DNA of 5,988 nucleotides, taken from positions 1 through 5,988 of the forward strand of contig JALGZO010000554.1 in the NCBI GenBank assembly GCA_025774865.1. The letters are read 5' to 3'. Each line of letters begins with the position of its first letter. Within the stretch, counting starts at the first letter, position 1. Below, piece after piece: positions 1,397 to 5,745 of the stretch. A model generated the notes under the pieces. It saw only the letters and a program-made list of their open reading frames with translations. It was not told the DNA's origin and ran no database searches. The DNA comes from a bacterium (GTDB taxonomy: Bacteria > ARS69). The position numbers and the translations under genes were made by a program.

Positions 1397-1466
1397 ACTG
1401 TAGGTCGTCAGATCTCGTTGTGGGTCCCGAACACTCGTGTTGCATGCGTGGCAGGCGGTTATCGGC

Positions 1467-2188
<722 letters not shown>

Positions 2189-2192
<4 letters not shown>

Positions 2193-3640
2193 CCGCACGC
2201 GATCTCTTCCGCGTCGGGCTCGGCAATCTGTGGCGTCGCAAGCTCCGCAGCGGCCTGACGACGGCCGGCGTCGTGATCGCCATCGGTGCGTTCGTCACGA
2301 TGCTGTCGCTCGGCGCCGGAAACCAGCAGATGGTCACCCAGGAGTTCGAGGAGTCCGGCCTCCTCTCCGCCGTACAGGTCTATCCGAGGTCCGACGAGGT
2401 CGAAGCGGACGGTGTCGCCGCGCTGGACGATGACGCGCTCGCTGCGCTCTCCACCCTGCCCGGCGTGCGGCTGGCATTTCCGTTCGAGGACTTCGACGTG
2501 GAGGTCTCGTTCGGCGACAGCACGGTGTCCGCGAAGGCGCAGGCTCGCCCGCCGGGCGCTGAGAGCTTTCGGATCTACACGCGGCTCGTGGACGGCGAGG
2601 AGCTGACCGCGGACGACGACGACGGCGTCCTCGTAGCCGCCAATTTCCTCGACGAACTCGGGATCGACGACACGGACTCGCTCCTGGGACGGAGCGTCCG
2701 CGTATCCGTGCGCTCAGTGAGCCCGGACAGCGGCCTGGCCCGGGTGCTCGAGGGACTCGGGGACCGGCTCCGCAGCCAGTACGAGCACATCGATCGCGAT
2801 TCGCTGCACAATCGGAATTGGGTAGAGGCACAGGTGCGGCGGGAGGCGTCGGGCGCCGCGCAGCGCTTCTTCGACGGCTACCTCAACGCGCAGGTTGTCA
2901 CCGAAGACACGCTCACCGTACGCGGCGTGCTCCGGGGCGGGGATCGTCGGACGCGTCGCTCCCTTCTGATTCCCGTGGCGACAGCACGACGGTTCGCCGC
3001 GGCGGGACCCGGAGGCGATCCTGCGAAGATCCTCCCGTCGCTGCTGAGCGGGAACCTGTTCCTGCCGCCGCCAAAGGAGGGCGCAAAGAGCTACCGCCAG
3101 GCGACGCTGGTTTTGACGCCGATCGCGTCGCACTCGGCCGTCGTGGACTCGCTGGAAGCGCGGGGCTTCCGGGCGTTCAGCTACGCGGCCGAGTTCTCGC
3201 AGATCCGTCGCGCCCTGATGTTCTTCCAGCTCGGGCTCGCGTCCGTGGGGCTTGTCGCCCTGGCGACAGCGGCGCTCGGAATCGTCAACACGATGGTGAT
3301 GTCCGTGTCGGAGCGACGGCGGGAGATCGGCATCTTCAAGTCGCTCGGCGCCGAGGATCGCGACGTCCACCACCTCTTCCTGGTGGAGTCCGGTACGATC
3401 GGCGCAGTCGGCTCGGTGCTCGGCGTGCTTCTCGGCTGGGTGGTCGCACGCATCGGCTCCGCAATCGCCCAGGAGCTCATGCGGCGTCAGGATGTCCCGC
3501 CGATCGATCTGTTCGCCACGCCGCTCTGGCTCGTGGCGCTGGCGATCGGCTTCGGCACGCTCGTGGCCGTCCTGGCCGGCTGGCTGCCGGCCGCGCGTGC
3601 TTCGCGAATCGATCCGGTCCGCGCATTGCGGAACGAATGA
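2189..3640 (+). CDS. FtsX-like ABC permease with MacB-type periplasmic domain
   Basis: This 483-aa membrane protein is the partner of the ATPase just upstream; its ATG overlaps that gene's stop. The topology is the type VII pattern: a basic N-terminus, one membrane span at about 22-42, a large extracytoplasmic domain of about 300 residues (MacB periplasmic core domain), then three spans at about 345-370, 403-425 and 446-467. The SERRREIGIFKSLGA stretch after the second span and the C-terminal ASRIDPVRALRNE are hallmarks of FtsX-like permeases. Family members move lipoproteins, peptides or antibiotics by mechanotransmission rather than by a channel through the membrane. The ATPase is separate rather than fused as in E. 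coli MacB, and no HlyD-type adaptor or TolC-type gene is seen next to it. The extracytoplasmic domain holds acidic runs (ADDDD) and a possible extra helical part near residues 188-235. The substrate cannot be told from the sequence. Confidence 0.93.
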
Positions 3641-3643
3641 CCG

Positions 3644-4030
3644 CTATGGCGACCGCCGGTGAGCGGGCTGGGATCCCCAGGTCTCGCCCTCGGGCAGCAC
3701 CCGGTCACTCGGGAACTCTCCTACGAGCACCCATTTACCGGAGTCGTAGTACCAGCCGTGATCGTTTACCGTGATGAGAATTCTCTCACCCAGGAACTTC
3801 ACATCCGAAATCGGAACGGGAAGGTCGGCACCCTCCTGCCGGACCCAGCCATCCCCGTCAAGATGCCACGCTTCTCCGAAGCGATCGACGCATTCGTCAC
3901 CTCGAACCCCGATGATGCGTCCCCGCACTTCCGGGTCATAGGCGGCGTACGTCGAGCGAGATCCCAAGTGGTAGGCCATGGCAAGGGCGAGCAGGCCAAT
4001 GCACACGAACATGAAGTTTCGAGCCGTCAT
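3644..4030 (-). CDS. Small exported or membrane-anchored protein of unknown function
   Basis: I do not recognise a named family. The protein has 128 residues. Residues 5-22 (FMFVCIGLLALAMAY core) are a hydrophobic signal or anchor, with a possible signal-peptidase site after TYA near residue 29. The rest is soluble and holds two similar units: AWHLDGDGWV (54-63) and GWYYDSGKWV (92-101), both of the form W-aromatic/His-x-D-G-x-W-V followed by a beta-like stretch, as in blades of beta-propeller or carbohydrate-recognition repeats. The start is ATG 4030, preceded by a purine-rich GGAGGGGG at good spacing; the upstream extension of this frame to 4285 reads as low-complexity noncoding sequence. 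The stop (TAG) lies 3 bp from the convergent permease stop. A 10-bp tandem repeat adjoins the ribosome binding site. One Cys in the signal and one (C47) in the soluble part are present. Confidence 0.8.
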   Translation of the reverse strand: MTARNFMFVCIGLLALAMAYHLGSRSTYAAYDPEVRGRIIGVRGDECVDRFGEAWHLDGDGWVRQEGADLPVPISDVKFLGERILITVNDHGWYYDSGKWVLVGEFPSDRVLPEGETWGSQPAHRRSP

Positions 4031-4069: not shown

Positions 4070-4207
4070 GGTAGCGAGGCGAACCCTACAACGTGTCGTG
4101 TCGCAGGGCGACGGGAAACCCGAGACGCGGCTCAGGAATTCCTGGCCGAATCGGAGGAAGACGGCGCCGCGGCCCCCGCGGGTCCCTGGGGATGTTGCTC
4201 GGACTTG

Positions 4208-4223
4208 CCCGCCACCTGGCGGG
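4208..4223 (-). other. SECIS-like hairpin 10 nt after a UGA
   Basis: Reading the minus strand, the TGA at 4236-4234 is followed by 10 nt, then CCCGCC (4223-4218), loop AGGT (4217-4214) and GGCGGG (4213-4208), a perfect 6-bp stem. The loop begins 16 nt after the UGA and has G as its second base. This matches the known pattern of bacterial SECIS elements (apical loop about 16-37 nt after UGA with G among its first two bases), and the AGGU loop is like that of E. coli fdhF. The bulged U of fdhF is not seen. No T-run follows on the minus strand, which argues against an intrinsic terminator in that direction; on the plus strand only TTT follows. Confidence 0.4.
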
Positions 4224-4233
4224 TTTGCGTCGT

Positions 4234-4323
4234 TCAGGTGGGGACACCGAGCTTTGGAAGGACGACGTTTCGCAGCAGGATCCACCCGCCGAGGACGAGC
4301 ACGAAGGTCAGCAAGCTATCCAT
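4234..4323 (-). CDS. 29-codon single-span membrane protein, possibly a selenoprotein extending to 4132
   Basis: The peptide starts with MDSLLTF, runs through a hydrophobic span (about residues 3-22, with GGW in it) and ends LPKLGVPT before a UGA. Translation is well supported: AAAGGAG (4337-4331) lies 7 nt upstream of the ATG. The predicted product is a one-span membrane protein with a short basic exit segment (R18, K24). I do not recognise the family with certainty. If the UGA (4236-4234) is read as selenocysteine, using the hairpin at 4223-4208, the frame continues for 33 more codons (Thr-Thr-Gln-Thr..., then a Pro/Ala/Ser-rich hydrophilic tail) to a TGA at 4134-4132, giving 63 residues with Sec at position 30, just outside the membrane. 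By my count GC3 in this extension is about 79%, above positions 1 and 2, which is compatible with coding but not decisive. No other cysteine is present. The neighbours do not reveal a role. Confidence 0.6.
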   Translation of the reverse strand: MDSLLTFVLVLGGWILLRNVVLPKLGVPT

Positions 4324-4330
4324 GGAGTGT

Positions 4331-4337
4331 CTCCTTT
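4331..4337 (-). promoter_or_regulatory. Ribosome binding site of the 29-codon gene
   Basis: AAAGGAG on the minus strand sits 7 nt before the ATG at 4323. It is the main evidence that this very short frame is translated and that the start is not the upstream in-frame ATG at 4437, whose extra residues look noncoding and overlap the 15-bp hairpin. Confidence 0.65.
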
Positions 4338-4467: not shown

Positions 4468-5745
4468 CTAGGGCCGCGCGGCGGGATCTTTCAGACGCGT
4501 TTCGGATAGCTCACGGATCCGGCGCCTGACGTACGGCCCGTCGCTCGGCGACGGCGACAGGGCAAGATACATTCTGTACTCGCGAACCGCTTCCATGACC
4601 GTGGCTCTTGCCTCCGCGATAGCCGCAAGGCCTCGATGCGGCTCGGCCATGGTCGGGTCCAGCGACGCACAAGCCGCGTACTTGCTCTCGGCGAGATCGA
4701 GAGTATCCGGATCGCTGCTCATGTGCCGTAGTGCTTCTCCGAACCAGAGCCACACTTCCGCGTCCTCCGGATCCGCTTCAAGCAACCTCTCGGCGTCTCT
4801 GACGGCCCTGTCGTACCTCCCGTTCTCCACCCAAAGCTCGACCATACTGTGCCGAACGACTCTCGTTCGGGCGGCGTACTCGTCGTTCCCCATGGTCTCT
4901 CGACCCGTGGCCACGCTTGCCCCCGCGCTCATCTCGGCGACGCGGGAGCTCACATATTCGCGTCTTGCGACGGTTCTCGGGTGATCGGCAAAGAAGAACG
5001 CAACCGGCGCCCACGGATCGTCATACTCCTCCAGAAGATGATCGAAGACCCGGGGCGCCTCTGTCACGTCGTAGTTCGCGGTCACCATGTAGTCGAGTGC
5101 CGCCAGGTCCGCCTCTGCCTCTCGGGCACGCCCGTAGCCGTTGATCGCCGCCGACGCGGTGAGATATACCGACGCTTGGGTCAGGAGATTCCAGAACAAG
5201 ACGTTTCGAGGCGCCCTTTCCGTGACGACGCCGAACACGGCGAGGCTTGCGAGTTGCGCGGCCACCGAGATGTTCTTCGTTCTCGCGTAGTTGTGGACGC
5301 CGTGTCGGTTCACCACATGAACGATCTCATGGCCCAGCACCTGCGCCAACTGGCTCTCATTCTCCAAACGGGCGACCAATCCCGCATGGATGAATATCGT
5401 ACCGTCAGGAAGCGCGAAGGCATTGAGCTCGGGGTCTCGGATCACGTGGAAACTGAAGCTGACGACAGATTCCTGAAGATGAGCGGGGACCAGACGCATT
5501 CCGACGCTCTGTACATAGTCACCCAGCACCGAATCGGCATAGACCACGCCCGCCTTTCGGAGATACTCGGTCCCGTACCGGCTCTCGCTCCAGAGCCGCC
5601 GATCCAGATCGGGTAGTTCGTCTTCCGAGACCAAGCCGGACAGGTCGAAATCACCACCCGCCGTTGCGCACCCCATGGTGGAGATCAAAAGCAATTGGAG
5701 CGCGTACCGCTTGAGGGCGTGCCGGCAGCATGAAGGTGTCCGCAT
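4468..5745 (-). CDS. M48 family metallopeptidase, lipoprotein with C-terminal TPR-like region
   Basis: This 425-aa zinc peptidase probably acts in the periplasm on misfolded or misassembled envelope proteins, as BepA, LoiP and YcaL do in E. coli. Residues 11-26 form a hydrophobic signal ending in STMGC, a non-canonical lipobox that would put the lipid on Cys26. The zinc motif HEIVH (139-143) gives His139, catalytic Glu140 and His143; the third ligand is expected to be Glu209 in EAEAD (209-213). The upstream NAFALPDGTIFIHAGL (108-123) and the later DHPRT (254-258) are also typical of the family. From about 297 to 400 there are amphipathic helices with TPR-like spacing (YDRAVRDAERLLEADPEDAE, then AESKYAACASLDP), as in BepA. 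ATG 5745 is preceded by a GAGGCGG at fair distance. The stop is TAG. It follows a partial gene on the same strand after 57 bp, so it may be in an operon with it. Confidence 0.93.
   Translation of the reverse strand: MRTPSCCRHALKRYALQLLLISTMGCATAGGDFDLSGLVSEDELPDLDRRLWSESRYGTEYLRKAGVVYADSVLGDYVQSVGMRLVPAHLQESVVSFSFHVIRDPELNAFALPDGTIFIHAGLVARLENESQLAQVLGHEIVHVVNRHGVHNYARTKNISVAAQLASLAVFGVVTERAPRNVLFWNLLTQASVYLTASAAINGYGRAREAEADLAALDYMVTANYDVTEAPRVFDHLLEEYDDPWAPVAFFFADHPRTVARREYVSSRVAEMSAGASVATGRETMGNDEYAARTRVVRHSMVELWVENGRYDRAVRDAERLLEADPEDAEVWLWFGEALRHMSSDPDTLDLAESKYAACASLDPTMAEPHRGLAAIAEARATVMEAVREYRMYLALSPSPSDGPYVRRRIRELSETRLKDPAARP

Follow-up and report, generated by a model that had tools for sequence, protein, structure and literature searches.

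A 63-codon membrane gene of an ARS69 bacterium very probably encodes a divergent member of an apparently undescribed selenoprotein family

The stretch of DNA analysed here, referred to as the window, is 5,988 nucleotides long and carries on its reverse strand a short gene (4132..4323) predicted to encode a small membrane selenoprotein of 63 residues with selenocysteine (Sec) as residue 30 and a UGA as its end. Translation of 4323-4132 through the first UGA gives MDSLLTFVLVLGGWILLRNVVLPKLGVPT-U-TTQTRQVAGKSEQHPQGPAGAAAPSSSDSARNS-stop(UGA), i.e. 29 codons, the in-frame UGA (4234..4236), 33 codons and the terminal UGA, in agreement with the frame laid out in the original prediction. The good start claimed there for the peptide was borne out as well: a Shine-Dalgarno sequence, AAAGGAG (4331..4337, reverse strand), lies 7 nt 5' of the ATG. 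AlphaFold2 predicted a single transmembrane helix (4252..4320, residues 2-24) with a pLDDT of about 92 and the tail with low confidence. The putative bSECIS hairpin (4208..4223) follows the UGA, and the 33 codons 3' of Sec (4135..4233) encode a hydrophilic tail without the partner Cys that is usual in the family described below. On the same strand, a gene for an M48 family peptidase with TPR-like repeats (4468..5745) is located upstream and an ORF of 128 amino acids with a hydrophobic N-terminal stretch and no family match (3644..4030) downstream. The forward strand holds a cysteine-synthase-like gene (275-1393) and a MacB-type ABC transporter pair consisting of an ATP-binding protein and a MacB/FtsX permease (1437-3640). 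As judged from the comparisons below, the codon-30 UGA is very probably read as Sec and the gene a genuine selenoprotein gene. SelB and tRNA-Sec would decode this UGA using the SECIS hairpin 10 nt downstream, and translation would stop at the second UGA.

In a first search of 60 genomes, unrelated families turned out to encode the peptide too, again with TGA at this site and mostly with M(S/A)xxC after it. A family profile of eight rows was then compared with 386 genomes, in most cases one or two from each bacterial family, and without codon bias at the site. Matches with E < 1e-5 occurred in 42 genomes, with TGA as the site codon in 41 and CGA in one; the window sequence scored an E value of 1.3e-18, itself being one of the eight profile rows. 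On inspection, weak matches in G065 and G145 proved to be due to chance. In the GTDB species genomes, a degenerate DNA pattern that had TGN as the site codon matched at least 116 loci. Among the pattern matches listed and the other loci collected, the site codon was TGA in at least 119, TGC in at least 3, TGT in at least 1 and TGG in none. The 145 distinct members collected comprise 141 with TGA, 3 with TGC and 1 with TGT; neither TAA nor TAG occurs among these, and one further homologue has CGA. The original prediction had proposed to look for homologues with Cys or Sec at position 30, as opposed to homologues ending at VPT with UAA or UAG. It was the former that we found, with UGA in 141/145 and Cys in 4/145, and the frame continues beyond the UGA. 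The members are membrane peptides of about 50-70 residues with a single, predicted N-out helix and the motif LP[RK]xG[VI]PT-U-M[SA]xxC. They span at least 14 named phyla, including Acidobacteriota, Thermodesulfobacteriota, Myxococcota, Planctomycetota, Armatimonadota, Spirochaetota, Chloroflexota and Actinomycetota, and cultured Geobacteraceae are among the carriers. One Desulfobacterales contig (L103) contains two tandem paralogues, around 4743 and 4968, both with TGA.

Downstream of the UGA, the sequence is conserved as protein since Ser at position U+2 is encoded by disjoint sets of codons, TCN in 61 members and AGY in 34. The Cys codon at U+5 is TGC in 78 members and TGT in 42. Frame 0 has no stop for 15 or more codons after the UGA in 98% of members versus 66% and 51% in the other two frames. 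Met follows Sec in 125 of the 141 Sec members, and 120 keep the exact Ux4C spacing. In ten of the 141, no Cys lies within 14 residues of Sec, and a mechanism based on Ux4C is therefore not universal; since such Cys-less members occur, Sec is the core residue and Cys a usual but dispensable one.

SelB was present in 174 of the 386 genomes. All 42 carriers of the family possess it, compared to 132 of 344 non-carriers (Fisher p = 1.3e-16, with genomes sampled across families and kinship unmodelled), and the carriers amount to 42/174 or about a quarter of the sampled SelB genomes. The search for selA, selB, selC and selD in the same genome that had been suggested as a check was positive throughout: the window genome has SelA, SelB and SelD as well as a tRNA-Sec scoring 72.7 bits at a cut-off of 47. 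Its selD gene (G000:C477:1420-2355, locus L186) contains one in-frame TGA, and this SelD is probably itself a Sec-containing protein.

RNA folding reproduced the perfect 6-bp stem with loop AGGU that had been noticed 10 nt after the UGA: CCCGCC (4223-4218) pairs with GGCGGG (4213-4208) around AGGU (4217-4214), with the apical loop 16 nt from the UGA and an MFE of -14.8 kcal/mol. These values satisfy a bSECIS model that follows published constraints in our own coding (loop of 3-9 nt, upper stem of 4 bp or more, G in the first two loop positions, distance of 16-37 nt from the UGA, MFE of -7.5 or lower). By itself, the window hairpin stands out only mildly, at a z-score of -1.73 and with 13 of 200 shuffles folding equally well, and an Rfam scan of the window gave no match. 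The model was satisfied by 113 of the 141 Sec members and failed, as simply coded, by 28; it was passed by 24.7% of dinucleotide shuffles made from family members and, in an upstream control covering the 60 nt 5' of the UGA, by 41/141. It is the conservation among relatives and not the single sequence that gives the window hairpin its significance. As selection by structure was to be avoided, the set for covariation was picked by protein motif and comprises all 69 Sec members with Ux4Cx4R. Among all pairs within 48 nt, the four column pairs of highest mutual information are stem pairs. Standard pairs occur in 72-94% of the sequences for seven of the eight innermost stem pairs, several of which are changed on both sides (AT/GC/CG). 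Stem pairing reached 78% of cells versus 57% in column shuffles (maximum 62%), and at most 48% when the register was slid as a control for relatedness. The apical loop has G in 59/69 and G or U at the next position in 62/69. The hairpin 3' of the UGA shows covariation across the family. The original prediction had allowed for an incidental hairpin; this caution was appropriate for the window sequence alone but does not hold in view of the covariation, and hairpin and tail, whose lack of conservation would have spoken for it, are both kept among relatives.

The Cys forms among the matches listed belong to Acidobacteriota (L134, L146), Myxococcota (L074) and Chloroflexota (L123). Two of the four Cys-form genomes are without SelB, whereas none of four Sec-form genomes checked alongside lacks it. 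Furthermore, two Cys-form genes placed in the covariation register still pair at six of eight stem positions and have the loops GTC and GGC. The missing SelB and these SECIS-like remnants suggest that the Cys forms are recent conversions, for which we infer the direction from Sec to Cys. The homologue in which CGA (Arg) takes the place of the Sec codon (L174, G249:C168) has a stop soon after and resides in a SelB-positive genome. Its CGA is one transition away from TGA, and it looks like a decaying copy.

According to the family statistics, the first six residues carry a net charge of -0.6, and the stretch between the helix end and Sec one of +1.7. By the positive-inside rule, these charges would place the N-terminus outside and Sec at the cytoplasmic surface of the membrane. 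This refines the earlier placement of Sec just outside the membrane: the side is probably that of the cytoplasm and not the exterior of the cell. The single helix would run N-out/C-in, with the LP(R/K)xG(V/I)PT collar setting Sec on the cytoplasmic membrane surface. A profile search of the PDB revealed no relative of the family.

Clues to the function come from the neighbouring genes. Assigned by Pfam, the first neighbours on the same strand (n = 138) include DUF302 (11), DUF72 (6), thioredoxin (7), rhodanese (4), DUF6132 (3) and ArsR-type proteins (3), and the second neighbours add thioredoxin (4) and DUF6132 (2). None of DUF302, thioredoxin and DUF6132 is among the families listed for opposite-strand neighbours, where rhodanese and ArsR occur twice each. 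A local profile placed DUF302 close to the family gene in 14 loci; the two genes often abut, and DUF302 lies on the upstream side in some loci and on the downstream side in others. DUF302 genes are also part of the sox clusters of sulfur oxidisers, where polythionate oxidation has been speculated (PMC5037610). Neighbouring ORFs come from a simple calling script and the recurrent partners cover a minority of loci; most neighbourhoods contain none, and the M48 peptidase and the 128-residue ORF of the window offer no redox clue. Based on the recurrent DUF302, thioredoxin, rhodanese, DUF6132 and ArsR-type neighbours, we favour the reading that the peptide is probably a seleno-redox element at the membrane surface and serves in the transfer of thiol or sulfane sulfur, which should be taken as a lead only. 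In most members, Sec and Cys would form the Ux4C pair, presumably as a selenenylsulfide. This pair could shuttle reducing equivalents or sulfane sulfur from or to a membrane partner, and its cytoplasmic partners would be thioredoxin, rhodanese or DUF302-type proteins. That N-out topology, selenenylsulfide chemistry and a sulfur/thiol role all apply jointly as stated is a tentative proposal, to which we assign a little less than an even chance.

The main rival to the thiol or sulfane-sulfur reading retains the selenoprotein family and assumes that Sec binds a metal or metalloid (Hg, As, Cu) for efflux or sensing rather than taking part in thiol redox reactions. Some neighbours are indeed ArsR-type regulators or RND or outer-membrane efflux components, and several members, including that of the window, have no second Cys and therefore could not form an intramolecular selenenylsulfide. 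However, ArsR regulators are also found in persulfide-responsive operons, and the commonest same-strand partners are DUF302, thioredoxin and rhodanese. The exact Ux4C spacing in 120/141 members also speaks against metal binding, which we regard as unlikely.

Within this otherwise very well conserved family, the window gene is, on the evidence of the alignment, a divergent and atypical Cys-less member with Thr instead of Met at U+1 and no partner Cys. Alignment invariants and the helix model still identify the short N-out helix, the LP[RK]xG[VI]PT collar and Sec directly next to it. The original prediction had seen no strong family signature in the tail because the window member is atypical and Cys-less; this description fits the window, but the family as such has the well conserved signature GVPTUMSxxC. 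The same Cys-less form, UAPPARQLADKSE, exists in G004, a genome of another genus in the same family as the window genome, together with a hairpin at equal distance from the UGA (loop AGUU). Between the two, RQ, A, KSE and P are kept in frame (conserved RQ(V/L)A.KSE), and the tail is poorly conserved after about codon 48. The form UAVP, likewise Cys-less, is seen in members elsewhere. A further alternative holds that the family is real but that the window copy is decaying, so that readthrough might be possible although the function of the protein is lost. This would agree with the loss of Met+1 and Cys+5, with the precedent of decay in G249 (CGA, then a stop) and with a fragmented, contaminated assembly (8.3%) in which another window gene carries a nonsense codon. 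It is nevertheless rather improbable given that Shine-Dalgarno sequence, helix, collar motif, UGA and SECIS are all intact, that G004 shares the divergent Cys-less form with its conserved residues and hairpin, and that the UAVP members exist elsewhere.

An ordinary stop after a 29-residue membrane peptide, with an incidental or terminator-like hairpin, would be compatible with the hairpin's z-score alone, the 25% of family-member shuffles that pass the bSECIS model and a Pro/Ala/Ser-rich tail that diverges between the window and G004, but is highly improbable and contradicted by the Cys replacements and the SelB co-occurrence: in the relatives collected free of codon bias, the site has TGA or Cys and never TAA or TAG across 14 or more phyla, the tail is kept as protein through the disjoint Ser codons, the hairpin covaries and every carrier genome contains SelB.

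Like the known bacterial selenoproteins (FdhA/fdhF, SelD; PMC13188914), the new family is predicted to use UGA as Sec codon with a bSECIS just downstream and a G[G/U] loop 16-37 nt from the UGA, and to depend on SelA, SelB, SelC and SelD. In contrast to them, it is unlisted, measures about 55 residues, has one transmembrane helix and lacks a Trx fold. Pfam and NCBIfam (June 2026) contained no relevant model that matched the members tested; at E values up to 10, the window and seven members retrieved only ATP synthase B' subunits from NCBIfam, at about 0.1. The GVPTU/PTUM motif is absent from the 119-family table of prokaryotic selenoproteins in a May 2026 review (PMC13188914). A tblastn search of a plasmid collection with a Geobacter member gave no relevant match, and a search of the open literature for motif strings and small selenoproteins yielded nothing relevant. 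In the profile databases and open literature covered, the family is apparently undescribed; an earlier description may exist elsewhere. TsoA (NF045695), TsoC, TsoX, TsoY and KCU-star (NF033934) are likewise short, motif-defined selenoproteins of unknown function; motif and architecture of the new family differ from theirs and the NCBIfam models do not match it.

Current selenoprotein finders depend on homologues with Cys and often on ORFs of greater length, an early survey demanded ORFs of at least 80-90 residues, and the newest predictor concedes that families without Cys homologues may be missed (PMC13188914, PMC12013277, PMC1242214). With 55 residues and almost no Cys forms, the family would escape such finders. 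We consider it likely that this is a major family, present in about a quarter of the sampled Sec-decoding genomes and at least 14 phyla, which has been overlooked as it is short and has few Cys homologues, that it acts as a near-obligate selenium-based redox or sulfur relay at the membrane surface, and that the rare Cys forms arose by Sec-to-Cys conversion. A family found in 42 of 174 SelB genomes may help to explain why many bacteria retain the Sec system, and it could serve as a natural system for the question why Cys cannot readily replace Sec.

DUF6132 (PF19628) likewise comprises small membrane proteins with a Cx4C-type motif beside the membrane and was a same-strand neighbour of the new family in five scanned cases. 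One such neighbour, a DUF6132-like protein at L131:5167-5361 (reverse strand), has GCKTGSCP, in which Cx4C resembles the Ux4C of the family, and may be a functional analogue. In the example seen, DUF6132 contains Cys only and the surrounding sequence differs; the likeness is one of motif. Separately, the cysteine-synthase-like gene of the window has an in-frame TGA at 545-547. We rejected it as a second Sec site or a change of the genetic code: relatives have Gly and not Cys at this position, and the gene for a 76% identical protein in G002 has GGG. On this comparison, the TGA is best read as a nonsense change or a sequencing or assembly error.
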